From Taibaiella sp. KBW10 (GTDB lineage: Bacteria > Bacteroidota > Bacteroidia > Chitinophagales > Chitinophagaceae): a stretch of DNA of 64,000 bases. A program made the position numbers and the translations under genes. Positions 5,860-48,220 of the stretch are shown one piece after another (positions within the stretch are counted from its first letter, which is position 1; each line of letters begins with the position of its first letter). The notes below the pieces were generated by a model that was given only the letters and a program-made list of their open reading frames with translations, was not told where the DNA came from and did not search any database. The stretch is from positions 272,497 through 336,496 of the forward strand of contig NZ_QAJI01000003.1 of the NCBI RefSeq assembly GCF_003852495.1, in the 5' to 3' direction.

Positions 5860-8010
5860 ATGAAGGTTGTAACACAAATAGCCCTATACTGTTTTATACT
5901 ACTGCTTGCTGCTGTGCCGGGTATGGCGCAGCAGCAAGTTCCTGTTGTGGCTAATGATACGGCCAAAAACAGCAATACCTCCTTTATTGAAATCCTGAAT
6001 TCTGAGTATACAGACATCGTTAAGGTGGGTACTGAACAGGTAACTAAGATCGTGGGCAATGTAAAGCTGCGCAATGGTACAGATATGTTGTACTGCGACA
6101 GTGCGGTCTTATACCAGAATAAAAAAGTAGCCGAGGCCTTTGGTAATGTCTCCATAGAGCAGGCCGATGGCACGGAAGCCTTTGCCGACTACCTTAAATA
6201 TACCGGTGGCAGCAAAACGGTATATATGAAGGGAGATGTGATTCTTACCGATAATAAAGGCAATGAATTATGGTCTGATGAAGTGGATTATAACCTGAGC
6301 ACTAAAGTGGGTAAGTTTTACAAAACAGGTACTTTAAAAAATGAATCCACCCTACTCTCCAGTAAATACGGAGAATATAATCTTAAATCAAAAGATGCCC
6401 GTTTTAAGGGTGATGTGGTGGTGAATGACCCTGAGTATACCGTCACTTCTGAAGATATTGGCTATAATACAGACACGAAACTGGTTCGTTTTTATGCTCC
6501 TGCAGTGGTTCAGAATGAAAGTACCTATCTGGTAGCCAAGGCGGGAACCTATGATGCCAAAAATAAGATTGCAAAGTTTCTGGGACGCTCTAATATGATC
6601 CATAATGCGCAATTTATAGAGGCCGATGATATTAAATATAATAAAGTGTCGGGCTGGGCGGTCGCAAAAGGCAATGTTGTGGCGATTGATACGGCGATGA
6701 AAACAACCTTATACAGTGGCTTTGCGGTATATAATGAGATTTCGGAGAAAATGACAGCGACGGATCATCCCATTATGAAACGAAAAGACGGAAAGGATAG
6801 CCTGTTTATCTTTTCGGACACCGTATTCAGTGAGCCGGTTGCTAACCTGAAACGTCCGGATGCCGGACCGATCGATACGGCTAAAGTACAGCTGGACAAG
6901 CTGATTAATGAATTACAATCCGGGATTGAAGTGGACAGCACTAAAATCCCTTTACAAGTTCCTGCGGCCAGGGATTCTTTGGGCGCTAAGTTGCCTAAAG
7001 ATAGCATTGCTCATCCTGCTGACAGCCTTATTCATGTTCAAGCGACAGACACCCCGATCACTGCGGCCGATAGCCTCAACCTACCGGAAGAAGCGCCTTT
7101 GGACCTTCCTCAGATGAATATTGCAGGCAGCGATAGCCTTGCAGACCATAACAATACCGATACCATACGGCATGCCGTAGACCTGAACCCGGCAGATAGC
7201 CTGGAAGCGACAGGTGATCGCCCACAACGGCCAAAGCATGGCATCGGAGAAAACCCGGAGCAAAAAATCTTTGAAAAAGGAACACAAGGCACTAAAGAGG
7301 GGGAACAAAAACCCCGGTATTTCATTGCCTATCATAATGTAAAAGTGTATGCCGATTCGGCACAGGCTAAATGTGATAGCCTTCGCTATTCTCAGCTGGA
7401 CTCCCTGATGATTCTGTATAAAAATCCGGTGATCTGGGGCAGACAAAGCCAGATATTAGGCGATACGATCTATGCGCTGTTGGACAGCAGTAAGATACAG
7501 GAAGTATATGTTCCGAAAAATGCGATTGTCATTCAGCAGAATGGCCCCGCAAAAGCAGGTATGTTCGACCAGATACAAGGGAGCCGGATTCATGCTTTCT
7601 TTGTTAATAATGAATTGGATTCTGCTGTAGCCTACCCTAATGCAGAAACGATTTATTTTGCTAAGGATGACGATGACGCTTACCTTGGGGCTTCCCAGGC
7701 TTCCAGCACGCGTTTACGGATTCAGTTTAAAAACCGTAAGATTAAGAAAATCCATTACCTTTTGGATTTCAAACAAACCATGACCCCCATGAGGAATGCG
7801 GATCCGGAAGCGCTAAGGCTCAGCCGCTTTAAATGGCGGGAAGCGGAAAGACCTAAATCATTGGAGGAACTTATGAAAGACGCTACCCCTTTTCAAAGAC
7901 TACAAATTTTAGATCAACCAGAACCCGCTGTAGCCGACAAAGAAGCGCCGAAAGAAGATCAGAAAAAGGAGCCAAAACAAAAGAAAAAGGGTAAGCAGAA
8001 AAAGAAATAA
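5860..8010 (+). CDS. OstA/LptA-like periplasmic protein
   Basis: 716 residues. A signal peptide ends near GMAQ (residue 24). Residues about 40-340 repeat a beta-strand pattern (NVKLRNGTDMLYCDSAVLY, GDVILTDNKGNELWSDEVDYNL, GDVVVNDPEYTVTSEDIGYN) typical of the OstA_2/LptA-like fold that in other bacteria carries lipopolysaccharide across the periplasm. A low-complexity Asp/Ser/Pro linker follows (about 340-470), then a second OstA-like part (about 480-630) and a strongly basic KKKGKQKKK tail. It is far longer than Escherichia coli LptA (about 185 residues) but has the usual layout for Bacteroidota. A role in envelope lipid transport is likely but inferred. A strong terminator follows. Confidence 0.85.
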   Translation: MKVVTQIALYCFILLLAAVPGMAQQQVPVVANDTAKNSNTSFIEILNSEYTDIVKVGTEQVTKIVGNVKLRNGTDMLYCDSAVLYQNKKVAEAFGNVSIEQADGTEAFADYLKYTGGSKTVYMKGDVILTDNKGNELWSDEVDYNLSTKVGKFYKTGTLKNESTLLSSKYGEYNLKSKDARFKGDVVVNDPEYTVTSEDIGYNTDTKLVRFYAPAVVQNESTYLVAKAGTYDAKNKIAKFLGRSNMIHNAQFIEADDIKYNKVSGWAVAKGNVVAIDTAMKTTLYSGFAVYNEISEKMTATDHPIMKRKDGKDSLFIFSDTVFSEPVANLKRPDAGPIDTAKVQLDKLINELQSGIEVDSTKIPLQVPAARDSLGAKLPKDSIAHPADSLIHVQATDTPITAADSLNLPEEAPLDLPQMNIAGSDSLADHNNTDTIRHAVDLNPADSLEATGDRPQRPKHGIGENPEQKIFEKGTQGTKEGEQKPRYFIAYHNVKVYADSAQAKCDSLRYSQLDSLMILYKNPVIWGRQSQILGDTIYALLDSSKIQEVYVPKNAIVIQQNGPAKAGMFDQIQGSRIHAFFVNNELDSAVAYPNAETIYFAKDDDDAYLGASQASSTRLRIQFKNRKIKKIHYLLDFKQTMTPMRNADPEALRLSRFKWREAERPKSLEELMKDATPFQRLQILDQPEPAVADKEAPKEDQKKEPKQKKKGKQKKK

Positions 8011-39619: not shown

Positions 39620-39870
39620 AGATAGAAATACTTTTTGAACATGAATTGTAAACTTACGCAAATCAAGGCATTGACCCGCTTTATGAAACGGTAAAATTCC
39701 GCGTGCCATTTTTAATTTATCATTATGAAAGTAAAGCACATATGTCAAAACTGAAAAATCAGAAAGCACTCCCTTTCCACAGCCCGTTCAAGATTTGTCA
39801 TTATATTGTCAAAATATAGCAATCTGGATATATATGACTAATCCGCGACAGTTTCCCAACCTTGCTCTGA

Positions 39871-39878
39871 TATATTTG
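39871..39878 (+). promoter_or_regulatory. -7 promoter box of the imelysin/carboxylase operon
   Basis: TATATTTG followed by CAGCG, 29 bases before the ATG at 39908. It is the only clear promoter box in front of the five-gene operon. I see no convincing Fur box around it. Confidence 0.6.
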
Positions 39879-39907
39879 CAGCGAATCATAAAAAACCAGT
39901 TAAAAAA

Positions 39908-41080
39908 ATGAAAAAACAACTTTTACTTACCGCAGGTTCCCTTGTACTATTATTTAGTGCCTGTAAGAAAGACACCAAGAAAAATGATGAGGCCAATCTG
40001 AAGATTAAGTATAGTACCTTAACAAGCACCTCACACTACTTCAATACCTTTAAAGATGATGCCGGTGCCACAACGGTTAATTTTGACGGACAAACTACCC
40101 GCATCAAAATGTTATCTGAATTAGATGCCTATATGAAAAAGGGTACCACTTCCACCCTGGATGTTACCAAAATGGAAAATATGTTCCGCAATACCAATGC
40201 TCCGTTTACAAATGCAGCACTGAACAGCGCCACAGACAAGACAATCATTTCTAAAACCGCACAGTCATTCAGTACCGCCAATGCAGAACTGGAGCGCCAG
40301 CGCTTTCTTTCTTACTTTGCGAAACTAAAAGCGGCCAGTGAGCATTATACTCAGGTAGCGACCAGTGGTACTGCAGGTTTACTGGAAAGCAAATACCTGG
40401 TTAATGAAAAGGGTATTGAATACAATCAATTGGTACAAAAAGGACTGATCGGAGCGATGCTTTTAGACCAGATTAGTAATATTTACTTAGGCACCGAAAA
40501 GATGGCTGCCGATAATGAAGCCCTTATTGCCGGTAAAAACTATACGGCTTTGGCCCATAACTGGGATGAAGCTTATGGATACCTTACTGCAAACGAATAC
40601 TATCCTAAACCAGACCCTGCTGATGCCACTAAATGGCTGGAAGTATTCCTGGGTAGCTATGCCCGTCAGGTAGGCCCAAGTGTAGGTGGAGATCCGAGCG
40701 CGATCTATATGGCCCTGTTAAAAGGTAGAGCAGCTATCGTCAACAAAGACCTGACTACCCGTAATGCACAAATTACAGCCGTTCGCAGTTCATTGGAAAA
40801 AGCAATTGCAACGATTGCCATCAGTTACCTCAACAAAACCAAAACGGCAACCAGCAATGGCGCTAAAATGCACTCTTTAGCAGAAGGCGTGGGTTTCGTG
40901 TATTCTTTACGTTTTGCCTTTAATGCAAAAGTAAACGCTACCAAATCTCAGGAATTAATGGATGCCCTGATGAATAAGCCTAATGGATTCTGGGACCTGA
41001 CGAATGCGGATATTGATGCGGTTAGAGATCAGATTGCTACCCTGACCGGAGTAGACAAAGCTGCAGTGGTTAACCACTAA
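39908..41080 (+). CDS. DUF4856 domain lipoprotein
   Basis: 390 residues. Lipoprotein signal ending in LLFSAC with the lipidated Cys at residue 18, then KKDTKKNDE, a typical basic start for mature Bacteroidota lipoproteins. The mature part (about 30-390) matches the DUF4856 pattern as I know it: AxxxFxxLKAASEHY, LLESKYLVNEKGIEYNQLVQKGLIGAMLLDQI, NWDEAYGYL and LAEGVGFVYSLRFAFN. It is almost wholly helical. Function unknown; it is first in the operon before an imelysin-like protein, which is also helical and binds metal or substrate at the cell surface in related systems, so a partner role in uptake is inferred. Confidence 0.9.
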   Translation: MKKQLLLTAGSLVLLFSACKKDTKKNDEANLKIKYSTLTSTSHYFNTFKDDAGATTVNFDGQTTRIKMLSELDAYMKKGTTSTLDVTKMENMFRNTNAPFTNAALNSATDKTIISKTAQSFSTANAELERQRFLSYFAKLKAASEHYTQVATSGTAGLLESKYLVNEKGIEYNQLVQKGLIGAMLLDQISNIYLGTEKMAADNEALIAGKNYTALAHNWDEAYGYLTANEYYPKPDPADATKWLEVFLGSYARQVGPSVGGDPSAIYMALLKGRAAIVNKDLTTRNAQITAVRSSLEKAIATIAISYLNKTKTATSNGAKMHSLAEGVGFVYSLRFAFNAKVNATKSQELMDALMNKPNGFWDLTNADIDAVRDQIATLTGVDKAAVVNH

Positions 41081-41103
41081 ACCTTATTTTTCTTTATTTT
41101 ATA

Positions 41104-41143
41104 TAAACCAATGGGCTGTTCAATAAAACAACCCATTGGTTTA
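41104..41143 (+). terminator. Hairpin between the first two operon genes
   Basis: TAAACCAATGGG pairs with its exact complement, with an inner TGTT/AACA. The T-run after it is short, so it may lower rather than stop expression of the downstream genes, setting a higher level for the DUF4856 lipoprotein. Confidence 0.65.
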
Positions 41144-41164
41144 TTGTCAAAAAAGCAATCCCAT

Positions 41165-42283
41165 ATGTTACGTAAAATCCTTTTGTATGCAAGTCTGTCA
41201 ACGGTCTTTTTACTTTCTTTGTATGCCTGTAATAAAGGCAAGAAGAAGACAGACGATACAGCTGCCCTGGACAGGAAACCGATGCTCAGTCATTATGCAG
41301 ATCAATATGTACTGCCCGGTTATGATGCCCTCATCCGCGATCTGAATACCCTGAATACACAAGCCGCTGCTTTTACCAGTACACCGAACAACTCCAGCCT
41401 GATCGCCTTAAAAAATGCCTGGGAAACGGCCTATCTGACCTGGCAAACCGTAGATATGCTGGAATTTGGGGCAACGGAAGAAATCTCTTTGCGTTCATAT
41501 ATGAACACCTACCCGGCCACCGAATCCAAAATTGAAGCGAATATCACAGCAGGTAATTATAACCTGGAGACTTTTGGGAATAAAGATGCCCAGGGTTTTC
41601 CGGCTGTAGACTATCTGATCAATGCCCTGGACGCATCGGGCACCATCGCCCGGTTTACCACAGCCGCTAATGCCGCTGCCTATAAAACATATTTAAGCGA
41701 TGTCATTCGGAAAATGCAGGAAAAAGCAATTACGGTTAAGAACAATTGGGTATCGGGCAGAAATACGTTTGTGGATGCCACAGGAACAGATGCCGCCGGT
41801 GGGCTTTCTAAAATGACTAATGCCGTTGTCTTGTATTATGAGCGTTATTTACGTTCGGGCAAGGTCGGTTATCCTGTAGGTGCCATGACAGGTGTTGCCC
41901 TACCGGGTCATGTAGAAGCCTACTACAGCCCAGAATTATCCAAAAGACTTGCTATAAAAGCCCTGGAAAGCTTTATTGCCTTTTATGAAGGAAAAAATTA
42001 TGATGGCACAGCAAGCACCAATGGCATGAAGCAGTACCTGAGTAGTATCGGCACTAAAGATAGTGACGGTACCTTGATGGCAACCGTCCTTAGTACTTCT
42101 CTTACGAATGGATTGACTGCCTTACAAAACCTGAACGGTACCCTTAAAGATGGGGTCAATACCAACCGAGTGGCGGTGTTGTCGGTATATGATAAATTAC
42201 AATTATCCGTGGCTTTGCTAAAAGTTGATATGGTCTCTGCCTTTGGGATCTCCATAACCTATTTAGATAACGACGGGGACTAA
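41165..42283 (+). CDS. Imelysin-like lipoprotein with altered GxHxxE motif
   Basis: 372 residues. Lipobox LYAC with Cys22. The mature protein is helical with two similar halves, as in imelysin (peptidase M75/IrpA-EfeO type) proteins: LKNAWETAYLTWQTVDMLEFG (about 82-102) and LPGHVEAYYSPELSKRLAIKALESFIAFYEG (about 246-276). The classical GxHxxE metal motif appears as GFPAVD at 144-149, so both the His and the Glu are replaced; His249 and Glu251 of GHVE are another possible site. Imelysins act in iron uptake at the cell surface in other bacteria. The open frame extends 18 codons upstream, but the ATG at 41165 gives a proper signal peptide. Confidence 0.9.
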   Translation: MLRKILLYASLSTVFLLSLYACNKGKKKTDDTAALDRKPMLSHYADQYVLPGYDALIRDLNTLNTQAAAFTSTPNNSSLIALKNAWETAYLTWQTVDMLEFGATEEISLRSYMNTYPATESKIEANITAGNYNLETFGNKDAQGFPAVDYLINALDASGTIARFTTAANAAAYKTYLSDVIRKMQEKAITVKNNWVSGRNTFVDATGTDAAGGLSKMTNAVVLYYERYLRSGKVGYPVGAMTGVALPGHVEAYYSPELSKRLAIKALESFIAFYEGKNYDGTASTNGMKQYLSSIGTKDSDGTLMATVLSTSLTNGLTALQNLNGTLKDGVNTNRVAVLSVYDKLQLSVALLKVDMVSAFGISITYLDNDGD

Positions 42284-42315
42284 TATATTTGCTTAAGCCC
42301 TCAAAATATATATAC

Positions 42316-42792
42316 ATGAACCAAAAACGCATCGTATCCTATATCCATGCCCTGCTAACGCTGGCATTAGCTGCTTTTTTTATCTACAAAGGTTTTCAAA
42401 AATTTGAACCGGGAAAGCTGCGGGAAAAAAATATTAAAATAGAAAACCAGGCGGATATTGTACAAAAAATCCTTGTAGAGAAAAATTATGCCGCACCCTA
42501 TGGATATGATCTGACGATGAACACCTTTCGCCAAAGCGGATTTCTGAAGGTAATCGGTATTTTTCAAATCCTTTCGGGTTTGCTGATGCTTTTCCCTCAA
42601 ACCAGAATGGCGGGCCTGCTCACCTTACTACCGATTATACTGAACATTTTCCTGATGCATTTTGTCTTTGACAACCGGCCACATGAAAATATAGAGACCG
42701 GCCGCTATTTGGCCGCAACAATTCTTCTTTTGTCATTTTACTACAAAAGATTGCTCCCGGTCTTGTGGCACAAAAAGGTAAACCTTGCCTGA
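42316..42792 (+). CDS. DoxX-like membrane protein
   Basis: 158 residues with four membrane helices: IHALLTLALAAFFIYKGFQKF, LKVIGIFQILSGLLMLFPQT, AGLLTLLPIILNIFLMHFVF and YLAATILLLSFYY. Helix pattern, size and the N-terminal KGFQKF match the DoxX/MauE-like superfamily, which includes thiosulfate-quinone and maturation proteins; some members bind quinones. That is interesting beside a vitamin-K-type carboxylase, but is only a suggestion. The stop codon overlaps the start of the next gene by eight bases, so both should be made together. Confidence 0.75.
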   Translation: MNQKRIVSYIHALLTLALAAFFIYKGFQKFEPGKLREKNIKIENQADIVQKILVEKNYAAPYGYDLTMNTFRQSGFLKVIGIFQILSGLLMLFPQTRMAGLLTLLPIILNIFLMHFVFDNRPHENIETGRYLAATILLLSFYYKRLLPVLWHKKVNLA

Positions 42793-44161
42793 TTCTTTAC
42801 TAAAACATACGCGCATAAATCAACTAAGGAAGCCCATTTACTCGGCTTCCTTAGCTACTTTCAGGATTCTTTTCGGATTGATGATTGTAGCCAGTATGCT
42901 GCGTTTTTTTGCCAAAGGCTGGATCGAAACCCTTTATATTAACCCCGGCTTTTATTTTAAGTATTATGGATTCAACTGGGTAAGCAATTGGGGTAACTAT
43001 ACGTATTGGTTATTTGCGATTTGTGGTATCAGCGCCCTGTCATTTGCCTTAGGCTTGTTTTACCGGATTTCTGCGGTGGTACTGTTCCTGAGTTTTACCT
43101 ATATAGAACTACTCGACAAAACAAACTACCTGAACCATTATTACTTTGTGAGCCTGGTTCTGTTTCTGATGATTTTTTTACCGGCCCATAGCAACCTGGC
43201 CTTAGACAATATCCGGAAACCGGCAACGCAAAAACGACAGGTACCCTTATGGACTACTGCAAGTATCCGGCTCTTACTTGGAATAGTATATGTATATGCC
43301 GGCCTGGCGAAGTTAAATTCAGACTGGCTATTGGAGGCCATGCCCCTAAAGCTGTGGCTGCCGGCCAAAAATGATCTTCCGCTTCTGGGCAATCTGCTGA
43401 ATAAAACCTGGGTCGCCTACTTTTTCAGTTGGTTTGGTGCGGCCTACGATTTGAGCATTCCCTGGTTGCTTTTTTATAAAAGAACCCGAATACCGGCTTA
43501 TTTGACGGTTATAGCGTTTCACATTGCGACTGCAATCCTGTTTCCTATTGGTATGTTTCCTTATGTGATGATCCTGTCAACCCTTATCTTTTTTCCTTCC
43601 GCCGGTATAGATGCTTTTTGGATTAAGATAAAGGCTATACTTCCCTCCATACCTTTGGCCAAACATTATAATGTCTATCATTACCACCCGCTCGCCAAAC
43701 GGCTGACGGGTATCGTATTTATCCTTTTCTTTACGATTCAGGCGCTGCTTCCCTGGCGGTATTTATGTTATAAAGGAACATTATTCTGGACCGAAGAGGG
43801 ATATCGCTTTTCCTGGCGGGTGATGCTCATGGAGAAAATGGGTTATGCCCAATTTGTCGTTAAAGAGGAAGGCAGCGACCGGAGGGTGGGCATCAACAAT
43901 AATGAATTTTTGAGTCCTAATCAGGAAAAAATGATGAGTACACAGGCCGATTTTATCCTGCAATACGCCCATTTCCTGGCCGGGCATTACAAAAGTATGG
44001 GCTGGAAAAACCCAAAGGTCCATGCTACGATTCATGTTAGTGTCAATGGCAGAAGAAGCGTGCTGTATATTGATCCGAACAGGGATCTGGCACAGGAAAA
44101 AGATAATTTTACACATAAAGACTGGATCACTCCATTCAACGATATTATTTATGGCTTATAA
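42785..44161 (+). CDS. HTTM / vitamin-K-dependent gamma-carboxylase-like protein
   Basis: 458 residues. The N-terminal 300 residues are the horizontally transferred transmembrane (HTTM) domain. Signatures of gamma-carboxylases are present: LDKTNYLNHYY (110-120) and YVYAGLAKLNSDWL (169-182), where Lys176 aligns with the catalytic lysine of human gamma-glutamyl carboxylase. The soluble C-terminal part has WTEEGYRFSWRVMLMEKMGYAQF (about 335-357) and ends near 458, much shorter than the human enzyme of 758 residues. The animal enzyme turns Glu into gamma-carboxyglutamate, a calcium ligand, using reduced vitamin K; bacterial forms are barely characterised. TTG start overlaps the DoxX-like stop; its end overlaps the receptor gene. 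Confidence 0.88.
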   Translation: MPDSLLKHTRINQLRKPIYSASLATFRILFGLMIVASMLRFFAKGWIETLYINPGFYFKYYGFNWVSNWGNYTYWLFAICGISALSFALGLFYRISAVVLFLSFTYIELLDKTNYLNHYYFVSLVLFLMIFLPAHSNLALDNIRKPATQKRQVPLWTTASIRLLLGIVYVYAGLAKLNSDWLLEAMPLKLWLPAKNDLPLLGNLLNKTWVAYFFSWFGAAYDLSIPWLLFYKRTRIPAYLTVIAFHIATAILFPIGMFPYVMILSTLIFFPSAGIDAFWIKIKAILPSIPLAKHYNVYHYHPLAKRLTGIVFILFFTIQALLPWRYLCYKGTLFWTEEGYRFSWRVMLMEKMGYAQFVVKEEGSDRRVGINNNEFLSPNQEKMMSTQADFILQYAHFLAGHYKSMGWKNPKVHATIHVSVNGRRSVLYIDPNRDLAQEKDNFTHKDWITPFNDIIYGL

Positions 44162-46352
44162 ATACGTGCTATTATTTGCATGCTTCCTTATTGCTACTCC
44201 AAGAATCTTTGCGCAAACGGACTCCCTGCGGCAAGCCAGGGTTTTAGATGAAGTACAGGTTAACGATAAGGCATCAAGCGATTTTGACAACCTGCGCAAG
44301 ATTGATGGGATGAAAATTACTGTAGGAAAGAAAACGGAGGTAATCAATGTGGAGCAACTCACGGTAAACAAATCTAACAATAATACTCGGCAGCTATATG
44401 CCAAGGTCACGGGGCTGAATATTTTTGAAAATGATGGTTCCGGATTACAGCTCAGTATTGGTGGCAGGGGCTTGGATCCTAACCGCACCGCAAATTTCAA
44501 TGTACGCCAAAACGGGTATGATATCAGCGCCGATGCACTGGGTTATCCGGAAAGTTACTATACCCCACCCGCCGATGCCCTGCAAAGGATCGAGATCATA
44601 AAGGGCGCGGCCAGTCTTCAGTTCGGTACCCAATTTGGCGGTCTGGTCAACTTCAAAATGAAACCGGCAGGGGGCAATAAACCTTTCGAACTGACCTCTA
44701 AACAAACCCTGGGTTCCTGGAATTTCTTTGGTTCGTTCAACCGCATTAATGGCCATATCGGCAAAAAAATAGATTATATCGCTTATGCGCATTATAAACG
44801 TGGGGATGGCTGGCGCCCCAACAGTGGTTTTAATGCGATCAATGCTTATACCGAAATTACCTATAGGGTGAATGATCAGCATAAGATCAGCTTCCAATAT
44901 ACCCTTCTTAAATACCTGGCGCAACAACCAGGCGGTCTTGATGACCGAATGTATGCTCAAGATCCGCGTCAAAGCAACCGCGCACGCAACTGGTTTGATG
45001 TTAGCTGGAACTTGTTCAGCATCGAATGGCTGAGCCAAATCAGCCCGAACACGAGCTTACAAACTACTGCTTATGGTCTTATGGCGCACCGGAAAGCACT
45101 TGGGTTCCGACCAAATCGACCTGCACAGACCGATCCCGGAGGAAAGCGTGACCTGCTGATCGGTACTTTTCAGAATTATGCACTTGAATCCCGTTTGCTG
45201 CATCATTATCAATTATTCGGAAAAAGACAAAGTGCCTTAATCGGAGTAAGGATTTACAAGGGCAATACTTTAAGTAAACAAGGCAATGTAGACAATGGCA
45301 GCGGTGCTGATTTTACGTTCCACAAAGAAGTTGATGAGCTGATCAGCGATTATCGCTTCCCAAATCTGAATATGGCAGCTTTTGCAGAACAGGTTTTTCG
45401 CTTGTCGGATCGATGGAGCATTACGCCCGGTCTTCGCTTTGAATTTATACAAACACGCTCGACGGGTACGTTTAATGAAATCATCTATGACCTGAGGGAT
45501 AGTATCATTAGCAAAACGGCGACTCCGGAATCACGGTCTTTAGCCCGCAGCTTTCTTATAGGCGGGCTTGGCAGCAGCTACCAATTCCGGCAAGACCTGG
45601 AACTGTATGGCAATATTTCACAAAATTATCGTTCGGTGACTTTTAGTGATATACAATTGGTGAATGCCTCTCTGGAAATTGACCCCAATATCCGCGATGA
45701 GAAAGGATGGAGTGCCGATTTGGGCTTAAGGGGTAACTTAGGAACAAGCCTTCGTTTTGACATCAGTGGTTTTCATTTATACTATGGTAATAAGATTGGC
45801 GAGTACTTTTTTGCCCGGACAAACGGGCAGGTGATTCGCAGAAGGGGCAATATCGGGGTCGCCCAAATTTCGGGATTGGAAAGTTTTCTCGAACTCAATA
45901 TCCTTCATGCCCTGGCAAAGCAGGAAAAACAATTCAAACTATCGGTATATTCTAATCTTGCCCTCACCCATTCGCGCATCAGCAAAAGCAAGCTTCCGAA
46001 TGTACTGCATAAACAGGTAGAGTATGTACCTGAAGTAAACTGGAAAACAGGTATACAAAGCCAGTATAAACAGCTGAAAGTATCGGTACAACTCAGTCAT
46101 TTAAGCCAACAGTACACCGATGCCACCAATGCCACTTCGGGCAATTTCAGTGGAGTAATCGGTTTGTTACCGGCTTATACCTTAATCGATCTCTCGGCCG
46201 CCTGGCGCTGGAAATACCTTTTGATTGAGCTATCCCTTAATAACCTGGGTAATGCTACGTACACCACCAGAAGAGCAACCGGATATCCGGGACCGGGCAT
46301 CATTCCGGGAGAGGGCCGGGCCATTTATGCCACTTTGGGGGTGCAGTTGTAA
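44151..46352 (+). CDS. TonB-dependent outer-membrane receptor
   Basis: 733 residues. Signal peptide to about residue 21 (RIFAQ). Plug domain about 40-190 with LSIGGRGLDPNRTANFNVRQNG and IEIIKGAASLQFGTQFGGLVNF, as in FecA-type siderophore receptors. A 22-strand barrel fills the rest (LTSKQTLGSWNFFGSFNRINGH ... AIYATLGVQL, ending in a barrel-type strand). There is no carboxypeptidase-regulatory head and no SusD partner, so a metal chelate rather than a glycan is the likely cargo. The ATG at 44151 overlaps the carboxylase-like gene by 11 bases; the open frame upstream of it lies inside that gene. A terminator follows. Confidence 0.93.
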   Translation: MAYKYVLLFACFLIATPRIFAQTDSLRQARVLDEVQVNDKASSDFDNLRKIDGMKITVGKKTEVINVEQLTVNKSNNNTRQLYAKVTGLNIFENDGSGLQLSIGGRGLDPNRTANFNVRQNGYDISADALGYPESYYTPPADALQRIEIIKGAASLQFGTQFGGLVNFKMKPAGGNKPFELTSKQTLGSWNFFGSFNRINGHIGKKIDYIAYAHYKRGDGWRPNSGFNAINAYTEITYRVNDQHKISFQYTLLKYLAQQPGGLDDRMYAQDPRQSNRARNWFDVSWNLFSIEWLSQISPNTSLQTTAYGLMAHRKALGFRPNRPAQTDPGGKRDLLIGTFQNYALESRLLHHYQLFGKRQSALIGVRIYKGNTLSKQGNVDNGSGADFTFHKEVDELISDYRFPNLNMAAFAEQVFRLSDRWSITPGLRFEFIQTRSTGTFNEIIYDLRDSIISKTATPESRSLARSFLIGGLGSSYQFRQDLELYGNISQNYRSVTFSDIQLVNASLEIDPNIRDEKGWSADLGLRGNLGTSLRFDISGFHLYYGNKIGEYFFARTNGQVIRRRGNIGVAQISGLESFLELNILHALAKQEKQFKLSVYSNLALTHSRISKSKLPNVLHKQVEYVPEVNWKTGIQSQYKQLKVSVQLSHLSQQYTDATNATSGNFSGVIGLLPAYTLIDLSAAWRWKYLLIELSLNNLGNATYTTRRATGYPGPGIIPGEGRAIYATLGVQL

Positions 46353-46366
46353 GCTATTTATAAAAA

Positions 46367-46394
46367 AGCCACCCGACGAGAACGTCGGGCGGCT
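46367..46394. terminator. Terminator between receptor and PspC operon
   Basis: AGCC-A-CCCGAC pairs with GTCGGG-C-GGCT, with six A on the left, which read as T on the minus strand. It serves the PspC operon best and lies between convergent genes. Confidence 0.85.
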
Positions 46395-46420: not shown

Positions 46421-48220
46421 TTAAGGTAATGGGCTGATGCTGCCATCATTTTCCATTTTATATAAGGTATTGGCTTTCCAGTTTGGATGATCATTTACAT
46501 TGATTGTATAGCCTCTGTGTCCTTTAATTCTCCAGGATTTGGAAAAAGATTTAGGGATATCACCCATACGGAATACTTTGCCTTTGGGAATCTGCACTTC
46601 TGCGGTCAGCAACTGGCCTCTGTATACTTTTGGTCCTCCGAGAGAGATGTACCTTGGAAAGCTCAGCCCGCTGCTATCCTGGGCAAAGCGGAAAGGCATG
46701 GCCGTGGCATATTGTTGTGCCGTAGCGACATTTTTCCCGTTACTTTGCCTGATCAGGTTTAAATGATAGAGGCTATCGGCGCTGGGCACTACTTTTACAC
46801 TCATGGCTTCAAATTCATAGCCTCCGGCAACGGTTTCCCTCACAAAAGTAAAGTCCTCTGCACTGGTTGATATTGAATCCCTGATCTGTCCGATAGTGAG
46901 TGTATCCTTTGGTTGGACCATAGACAGCCTTTCTTCAAGAATAAATTCTTTTTTTACATCTGAAAAAAGATCGCTCCCAACATAAAATAGGGTAAAAATA
47001 CTCAGCATGAAGGTGATGCCTAAACCATAACCCACCCATTTGTTGGTCTTTTTGGGCTTTTTGATCAGGTGTATCAACCATCTGATGATCGCCACGATAG
47101 GAATGACAGCTGCTAAAATAGCCGATATATATAATAAACTTGACTGCCACGAATGCTCAAAGATGATATTGGAGAAGGGCATGACGGCGACACCCAAAGT
47201 CGAGAAACCAAAGAGCAGGGCCAGTAAACCGATCAGAATGGCAATAAGCACCAGTGCCAGGGTACCCAGCACAAAGAATAAGATCGTATAAGCAAATATT
47301 TTCAGCAAGACCACGAAAAAGTTGCTTCCGGAATTGCGTACCGGTGTAGGAACCGCACTATTTTCTGTTTTCAAGGCCGCACTGAGGTTTTGCACATCAA
47401 TTTTTTCGCCGCGTAAATCCATTTTATCAGTCAGGGTTGATGCTTTTGGCAAAATAGCCCAAAGGACAATATACAAAAGGGATAACGTTGGAAATGCCGC
47501 TGTCGAAAAGGAGGCCAGCTCATTTTCATTAATGATATTGAAAAAGATAATCCCTAAGAGCGGAAAGGCAAAGAATAAGCGCAGCCAATTAACGGATACG
47601 TTCATATATGCGGACAGTCCTTTACAGACGCCTCCTAATATTTTACCATCCAGATCGCGGTATAATCTTCTTTTTAATTGGGTTGTGGGGATAAAGTAAG
47701 CCGGTAAAGCGATCCACAGTAAGAAGTACAACAGTACACCGCTTCCATAAAGCAAGGTTAAGAGCACAAAGGCAATCCGCACTACGGCAACATCTACATT
47801 CAGGTAAGATGCGACACCACTACAAACCCCTCCGAGTATTTTATCGTTGGCGTTACGCACCAGTTTTTTTCCTGATGGCTGTGCCAGATTGCTCTGAGGC
47901 AGGCCTTGTGCCGGGCGCAGCTGTTCTATTTCCGGTTCTATAAATTCGTCGGAAGTTTCCATCACGATTTGTTCCGGGCTGCCCATTATTTTAATGACCG
48001 ATTGTACATCTTCTTTTGCGATGGACACATTGTCTTTTTTCAGCTTGTCATGAAAAAGTTCTGCAATACGGTCTTCCATATCGCTATAGATTTCCATGCC
48101 GCCTTTTTCTTTTCCAAAATGTTGTTTTAACCAATTGAGGTACGTGGTGAGTTGACTATACGCTTCATCATCGATGGGCAACAAACGCCCGGCTAAGTTG
48201 ATATTGATTACCTTATTCAT
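46421..48220 (-). CDS. Membrane protein with two PspC domains
   Basis: 599 residues. A cytosolic head of about 100 residues (MNKVININLAGRLLPID) precedes two PspC domains (about 113-170 and 183-245), each with the DGKILGGVCxGLxxYxNV pattern and a membrane helix. Five or so more membrane helices follow (about 310-420), then a periplasmic C-terminal domain to residue 599 (KGKVFRMGDIPKSFSKSW). PspC in proteobacteria senses membrane stress with PspB; here the double form suggests a stress sensor or effector of its own. It overlaps the PadR gene by eight bases and is last in the operon. Confidence 0.9.
   Translation of the reverse strand: MNKVININLAGRLLPIDDEAYSQLTTYLNWLKQHFGKEKGGMEIYSDMEDRIAELFHDKLKKDNVSIAKEDVQSVIKIMGSPEQIVMETSDEFIEPEIEQLRPAQGLPQSNLAQPSGKKLVRNANDKILGGVCSGVASYLNVDVAVVRIAFVLLTLLYGSGVLLYFLLWIALPAYFIPTTQLKRRLYRDLDGKILGGVCKGLSAYMNVSVNWLRLFFAFPLLGIIFFNIINENELASFSTAAFPTLSLLYIVLWAILPKASTLTDKMDLRGEKIDVQNLSAALKTENSAVPTPVRNSGSNFFVVLLKIFAYTILFFVLGTLALVLIAILIGLLALLFGFSTLGVAVMPFSNIIFEHSWQSSLLYISAILAAVIPIVAIIRWLIHLIKKPKKTNKWVGYGLGITFMLSIFTLFYVGSDLFSDVKKEFILEERLSMVQPKDTLTIGQIRDSISTSAEDFTFVRETVAGGYEFEAMSVKVVPSADSLYHLNLIRQSNGKNVATAQQYATAMPFRFAQDSSGLSFPRYISLGGPKVYRGQLLTAEVQIPKGKVFRMGDIPKSFSKSWRIKGHRGYTINVNDHPNWKANTLYKMENDGSISPLP

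Follow-up and report, generated by a model that had tools for sequence, protein, structure and literature searches.

Why should a bacterial relative of the vitamin K-dependent gamma-carboxylase (VKGC; GGCX in humans) be encoded in one operon with an imelysin-like lipoprotein and a TonB-dependent receptor? This question is raised by a locus of Taibaiella sp. KBW10 at 39908-46352 on the plus strand of the window, which is the whole 64,000-nucleotide stretch analysed here (contig NZ_QAJI01000003.1, positions 272,497 to 336,496). Open reading frames (ORFs) and Pfam matches give five co-directional genes at this locus, coding for a DUF4856 lipoprotein, an imelysin-like lipoprotein, a DoxX-like membrane protein, the VKGC homologue and the TonB receptor. 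The coordinates of the gene ends give gaps of 84 and 32 bases followed by overlaps of 8 and 11 bases, and the arrangement put forward in an original prediction from the sequence alone is borne out by the ORF ends and the Pfam matches. As the best explanation of the whole, we lean on balance towards a cassette for uptake that responds to iron and includes a carboxylase-like enzyme dependent on menaquinol.

A four-gene cassette conserved in Bacteroidota

A scan of genome contigs with the window VKGC protein yielded 380 relatives, of which the best 80 loci were kept and annotated with profiles that were built from these loci and seeded with the window proteins. The order DUF4856, imelysin, VKGC and receptor, strand included, was present in 76 of the 80 loci, and in the remaining four (L007, L015, L020 and L080) a contig end falls inside the unit. 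This gene order is far beyond chance, and the conserved unit consists of four genes, encoding the DUF4856 lipoprotein, the imelysin-like lipoprotein, the VKGC homologue and the TonB receptor; conservation across Bacteroidota, a check proposed with the original prediction, was thereby confirmed. Hosts of the cassette include Edaphocola, Taibaiella, Hymenobacter, Larkinella, Pontibacter, Cellulophaga, Riemerella, Bizionia, Gelidibacter, Fulvivirga, Mucilaginibacter and Fodinibius. Median spacings along the cassette are 77.5, 14 and -15.5 bases (76, 78 and 78 loci), and the VKGC and receptor genes overlap in 57 of 78 pairs; gene starts in the relatives were called at the first start codon after a stop, and the overlaps are therefore upper bounds. 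Locus L021, in which the DUF4856, VKGC and receptor genes are split in frame and the 'upstream' region is intragenic, was kept in the totals, and the locus rows in the alignments of the cassette proteins (A1-A4) lack the last residue.

Among 296 Bacteroidota genomes, a VKGC was detected in 69 and a DUF4856 protein in 50, both together in 46 (Fisher test, 9e-32), and in all 46 the two matches lie 2.5-4.0 kb apart. Cassette-like imelysins, scoring above 200 bits with the cassette profile, lie at most 4 kb from a VKGC in 60 of 64 cases (the other four are in G288, G187, G282 and G108), and 61 of the 79 VKGC places have an imelysin match within the same distance. Three kinds of locus were seen in the 52 regions that were read (chosen mostly for a VKGC or DUF4856 without the other by Pfam, plus 12 for comparison): cassette loci, in some of which Pfam misses a diverged DUF4856 protein; loci of a second VKGC type that lacks the three partner genes; and four with DUF4856 but no VKGC. 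Mean pairwise identity over 36 shared loci is highest for VKGC (54%), followed by the receptor (50%), the imelysin (39%) and DUF4856 (38%). Among the genes that flank the cassette, the commonest cluster occurs at only 14 of 105 loci, and typing of six such clusters gave HMG-CoA lyase-like, IMP dehydrogenase, dihydroorotate dehydrogenase, LysE, DUF2231 and one cluster without a match. Recurrent flanking genes are few and those typed are mostly housekeeping genes, and no biosynthetic gene was found to accompany the cassette regularly at these loci.

The DoxX-like gene (42316-42792, plus strand) lies outside the conserved cassette. The 80 related loci yielded no match to it (phmmer, E 1e-5, ORFs of at least 70 residues), so that the window locus stands alone of 81, and the gene is therefore a local insertion. 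At 78 of the 80, no more than 299 bases separate imelysin from VKGC, and at a locus of the same genus (L153) the two genes are almost adjacent. The protein stays below the Pfam cut-off for the DoxX family (DoxX_2, 17.2 bits as against 26.3), and in the 296 genomes some match at E 0.01, distant in every case, was obtained in 55; the best one outside the own genome (46% over 87 residues, G105) lies on a contig other than that of the VKGC. The DoxX-like protein had been suggested as an electron-supplying partner of the carboxylase homologue, an idea that does not survive the count at the related loci, and it was rejected as a member of the cassette.

The VKGC homologue and its active site

Gene 3 of the cassette (42785-44161, plus strand) encodes a protein with matches to the HTTM domain (PF05090, 3e-77, 260.1 bits) and to the VKGC lumenal domain (PF22777, 7.2e-55, 185.5 bits), both with a cut-off of 27.7 bits. 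The lumenal match extends the homology to GGCX beyond the HTTM part, and a PDB profile match to GGCX runs along nearly the whole protein (E 1.7e-66). When aligned with residues ~51-505 of human GGCX, 121 of 434 aligned residues are identical, and Lys176, His118 and Asn117 of the window protein are equivalent to Lys218, His160 and Asn159 (the human numbering gave the expected letter at all 36 GGCX residues looked up). The segment LDKTNYLNHYY and Lys176 within AGLAKL, which had first pointed to this family, are both present in the translated protein. According to the available part of a cryo-EM study, Lys218 of GGCX takes the proton from the quinol, the side chain of the Glu is held by Asn159, His160 and Tyr395, and Phe286, Phe294, Phe299, His160, Val210, Met401 and Trp223 line the quinone pocket (PMC12589487). 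The equivalents of Lys218, His160, Asn159, Trp223, Phe286, Phe299, Ser398 and Met402 are invariant in 60 cassette proteins, and those of Phe294, Val210 and Tyr395 are found in 59, 53 and 52 of them, with Phe in place of Tyr395 in the other eight. The Met401 position is Val throughout. Positions lost in the cassette type are Lys217 (Ala in 55 of 60), Asn158 (Leu in all 60) and Asn290 (Thr in all 60), and Arg436, Tyr425, Cys99 and Cys450 of GGCX are not kept either.

An AlphaFold model of the protein reached a predicted local distance difference test score (pLDDT) of 89.9, with residues 1-7 and 333-340 under 50. Foldseek matched the model to the GGCX entry 9wfc (E 1.6e-20, TMq 0.83), and all 16 matches with E under 0.001 are GGCX entries. 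Comparison with the human enzyme, also proposed at the outset, thus found the pocket and active-site lysine kept in the alignment and the GGCX fold in the model. By its sequence, the protein is a member of the VKGC/GGCX family with intact catalytic and quinone residues, and it is probably an active quinol-dependent enzyme. It shares with human GGCX the fold, the sequence over ~51-505, Lys218, His160, Asn159 and the Phe residues of the pocket. It differs in its length of 458 instead of 758 residues, in having Ala at Lys217, and in lying in an iron operon of a genome without a VKOR match. Of an animal-type GGCX with a propeptide exosite, it lacks the full propeptide-binding and Arch domains, Tyr425 and the Cys99-Cys450 pair.

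The quinol would be menaquinol of the cell. The own genome has two PF02621 genes (MqnA/MqnD family), no match to menA and only a match below the cut-off to menB, which makes the futalosine route to menaquinone likely.

In 15 proteins of the second type, Asn290 and Met401 are kept in all and Asn158 in 10, and Tyr395 is His in all 15. The residue sets of the two types suggest that the chemistry core is kept and the grip on the substrate is type-specific. At 10 second-type loci (L112-L118 and L121-L123), the VKGC gene lies directly 3' of members of one gene cluster, and at L121 that member encodes a riboflavin kinase/FAD synthetase. In a quick tree of 98 sequences, a branch with support 100 separates the 80 cassette-type rows from human GGCX; human GGCX and L133 stand on very long branches, and the placement of the human protein is unsure. 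An orphan VKGC of the cassette clade, without the other three genes, was observed at L150 between PhoH-like and PEPCK genes. VKGC relatives are also present in four plasmid records. The two inspected, from Paracoccus albus (33.6%) and Bernardetia (33.5%), both lack the cassette; in the former (L168, 7956-9347) the VKGC homologue adjoins a DUF393 protein, and the 17 kb inspected contain none of the cassette genes. Leptospira has a bacterial VKGC homologue as well, a glutamyl carboxylase homologue that was presumed, in the accessible text, to have been acquired by transfer (PMC4555120).

Iron regulation and the partner proteins

Upstream regions were scored with a Fur-box matrix derived from eleven Riemerella boxes published in the available part of PMC5609570. 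Near-perfect palindromes such as ATTTAAAATTATTCTAAAT precede gene 1 in the relatives, and for 54 of 76 upstream regions at most one of 100 shuffles equalled or exceeded the score. Boxes with a score of at least 12 were found at 49 of 75 operon heads. Elsewhere in these loci they precede 13 of 666 other genes, and within the cassette they are absent before gene 2 (0 of 78), gene 3 (0 of 79) and gene 4 (0 of 79), in total 0 of 236. Raising the threshold to 14 gave 43 of 75 heads, 12 of 666 other genes and none before genes 2, 3 and 4; lowering it to 10 gave 54 of 75, 23 of 666, and three, one and none, respectively. Outside the subgroup to which the window belongs (L002-L022, with several records under the names Taibaiella, Flavipsychrobacter or Chitinophagaceae), 49 of 58 loci have a box of at least 12 ahead of gene 1. 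Within the subgroup, the motif TTTCCC[AG] stands in place of the Fur box (window and heads in L004-L022), at 14 of 18 operon heads as against 1 of 155 other genes. Its longer form, TTTCCC[AG]A followed by 2-4 bases and TG (TTTTCCCGATTTTGAAA), occurs once in the 64-kb window. The motif was weighed as an iron operator and not adopted as one. Exact long-form sites number seven in five genomes (0-3 per genome), with four at operon heads, two before a lipoprotein-like pair in two of the genomes and one without a gene directly downstream. The window version, TTTCCCAACCTTG, lies at 39852-39864 (plus strand), and TATATTTGC at 39871-39879 (plus strand) reads as a probable -7 promoter box by the Bacteroidota consensus TAnnTTTG.

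Expression data for related genes come from Riemerella anatipestifer, in which RAYM_09779-09794 comprise a TonB receptor, a VKGC, an imelysin and a hypothetical neighbouring gene. Their RNA-seq ratios without iron as against with iron were 2.11, 2.64, 3.07 and 2.41 in the order just given, and 2.70, 2.77, 2.92 and 3.07 in a fur mutant (PMC5609570, gene list). We matched these genes to L029, a locus of this species that carries the cassette, by gene name and order, not by sequence. The iron response of the cassette-named genes is clear as printed; direct Fur dependence there is not clear. The promoter of RAYM_09824 bound Fur in a gel shift reported in the same source (PMC5609570), and by the gene order of L029 this gene may be the head of a longer operon that contains the cassette. 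The Riemerella arrangement differs from that of the window: in L029, SusC/SusD-type genes precede the cassette, and an extra gene at 6070-6828, whose product bears a type IX secretion tail, lies between DUF4856 and imelysin. Bizionia argentinensis also has the cassette (L043). In the available text on this organism, mutation of mliR lowers an imelysin-like gene, and ferric citrate raises the TonB receptor gene RS03625 (PMC9478572); if these are the cassette genes, the rise with iron speaks against simple Fur repression. The proposal of a gamma-carboxylase homologue in a metal-uptake operon is thus upheld by homology and gene order, and the Fur boxes of the relatives and the Riemerella ratios point to iron as the metal. 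The four genes very probably form one iron-acquisition cassette.

The DUF4856 lipoprotein (gene 1, 39908-41080, plus strand; PF16148, 1.3e-65) carries Cys19 after its signal, conserved in 98% of 58 sequences, and has the conserved residues E171, K178, H217, D220, E221, R274, H322 and E326. At position 216 the family has Glu; the window and two of 57 others have Ala, and one has Gln. The set of His and acidic residues (E171, E216, H217, D220, E221, H322 and E326) could hold a metal. Four DUF4856 proteins from genomes without VKGC keep several of these residues, that of L146 all but position 216. The AF2 model (pLDDT 93.5) gave no fold match to the PDB in Foldseek (best E 0.39). In a second structure search the best match was an alpha-catenin-type bundle (Z 7.5, 4.1 A over 174 residues), a Z within the stated background of the tool for helical models, and no imelysin was among the 50 matches listed. 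The imelysin 3pf0 came up against the model at E 3.3 and TMq 0.20, and in a profile comparison of DUF4856 with imelysin the signal peptides alone aligned.

The imelysin-like lipoprotein (gene 2, 41165-42283, plus strand; PF09375, 2.9e-23) has an M75 domain (83.3 bits, cut-off 23.5) and PDB profile matches to 3n8u, 4ecg and 3pf0. The Pfam scan used a longer ORF with its start at 41111; the gene most likely starts at 41165, because the lipoprotein signal is there. The GxHxxE motif of canonical imelysins (ICMP/IrpA type) is absent from the window protein, in which the position reads GFPAVD (consensus GFPALD in 48 sequences), and the C-terminal ITYxDNDG is conserved. The motif is close to the IPPA variant, with Asp here for the motif Glu. 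Imelysin-like proteins have been described beside an oxidative enzyme in an iron-uptake operon under Fur (PMC3143127, available part). IPPA, the equivalent of PA4372, shares with the window protein a Pro at the position of the motif His; the enzyme there is an EfeB homologue, and here a VKGC homologue is encoded with DUF4856 and a TonB receptor. A second imelysin of the own genome (G000:C6:468338-469237, ~150 kb from the operon) has no VKGC match beside it.

The product of gene 4 (44151-46352, plus strand) is a TonB-dependent receptor with plug and barrel (PF00593, PF07715) and many invariant plug residues. It had been called FecA-like; TonB receptor is right by Pfam, and the likeness to FecA is a loose one (NCBIfam FecA equivalog, 81.2 bits, cut-off 1100). 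Invariant Glu residues are few in DUF4856 (E326) and imelysin (E251) and more numerous in the receptor, e.g., E63, E134 and E346.

Between genes 1 and 2, an RNA hairpin at 41103-41144 (plus strand; -22 kcal/mol for 41080-41165, z -5.2) is a possible processing or attenuation element. Past the end of the unit, a terminator-like hairpin with a T-run (46367-46394, minus strand) would serve the convergent PspC gene at 46421-48220. The operon as originally delimited ran from the TATATTTG box at 39871 to the edge of this hairpin at 46394.

Proposed role and alternatives

We propose that iron shortage would switch the cassette on (by the Fur box in most relatives), that the TonB receptor would import a ferric complex across the outer membrane, and that the DUF4856 and IPPA-like imelysin lipoproteins would receive or hold the metal. 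By homology to GGCX, the VKGC homologue would sit in the inner membrane with a periplasmic active site and, like GGCX, would make a strong base from menaquinol of the cell and O2. Most likely it would then carboxylate a Glu of a partner and mature the iron site of that partner. We infer the use of quinol and O2, the periplasmic face and iron as the metal of this strain; that the reaction is carboxylation and that its substrate is an operon protein is conjecture. Carboxylation is the most economical guess because the residues for the Glu side chain are kept, and gamma-carboxylation of an operon partner is put forward tentatively. More doubtful still is the full version, in which a gamma-carboxyglutamate (Gla) or related iron ligand would be formed in the periplasm from menaquinol, O2 and CO2 on a cassette lipoprotein or the receptor, without propeptide or VKOR. 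The copper proteins MbnP and MbnH are comparable in that a metal-binding protein is matured by a modifying enzyme whose gene is adjacent; these involve a di-haem enzyme and kynurenine, and no homology is claimed.

Several observations weigh against this proposal. The catalytic activity of the homologue is a prediction from sequence. Lys217, Asn158, Met401, Tyr425, Arg436, Cys99 and Cys450 are lost, and the protein ends near human residue 505, so that it has no Arch domain and lacks what remains of the propeptide-binding part; the stretch 333-340, which includes the Tyr395 equivalent, is modelled at a pLDDT below 50. The partner alignments offer no clear flexible conserved Glu as a target in DUF4856, imelysin or receptor (the last without a model). 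VKOR has no match in the own genome, and in the 296 genomes it is not associated with VKGC (16 of 69 VKGC genomes vs 56 of 227 others, p 0.87); recycling by VKOR was therefore rejected for this genome. On the side of regulation, the window promoter has no recognisable Fur box (score 3.1), a box of at least 12 is found at 0 of 17 heads of its subgroup and is missing at 9 of 58 heads outside it, and four internal sites pass at a score of at least 10. The ratios in the Riemerella fur mutant are as high as in the wild type, so Fur dependence there is weak, and the Fur-box table in the available part of PMC5609570 has no row for these four genes.

Some of these points favour other roles for the enzyme. 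The VKGC homologue might activate O2 with menaquinol without carboxylating anything, and the quinone epoxide or strong base would drive another reaction, such as hydroxylation, deprotonation or a redox step that helps to release chelated iron. Invariance extends to the base and most of the quinone pocket, but Asn158, Arg436 and Tyr425, which hold the Gla backbone and propeptide in GGCX, are gone together with the C-terminal part, and the unmatched VKOR fits as well. The Leptospira VKGC is reportedly able to epoxidise without carboxylating. Since Asn159, His160 and Tyr395 (52 of 60) are nevertheless kept to hold a Glu side chain, we regard this possibility as unlikely, yet one to be taken seriously. 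Better conservation of enzyme and receptor than of the two lipoproteins, and invariant plug residues as for one fixed ligand, would suit modification of a small molecule, either the imported ligand of the receptor or a peptide chelator, instead of a lipoprotein; a biosynthetic gene regularly near the cassette is lacking, however, and we think this improbable. The truncation relative to GGCX might even suggest a catalytically dead protein, acting as a membrane scaffold or as a quinone-sensing part of the uptake system. The invariance of the base and most quinone residues in 60 sequences makes loss of catalysis very unlikely, and this is by far the least probable of the alternatives.

Fur-controlled imelysin operons (PMC3143127, available part) and bacterial VKGC genes were already known. 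In the literature searched, which excludes most subscription journals, the fixed union of imelysin and VKGC with DUF4856 and a TonB receptor appeared only in the gene list of PMC5609570, as far as the accessible texts go, and no assigned role for a bacterial VKGC was found. The strict gene partnership and the iron-type promoter now give a testable role for a bacterial VKGC, with candidate substrates named, and the cassette points to vitamin K chemistry that would need neither VKOR nor a propeptide. If true, the reading of Gla as an iron ligand would supply a physiological role for bacterial VKGC, and it would perhaps reveal the setting in which the chemistry of the animal clotting enzyme arose.

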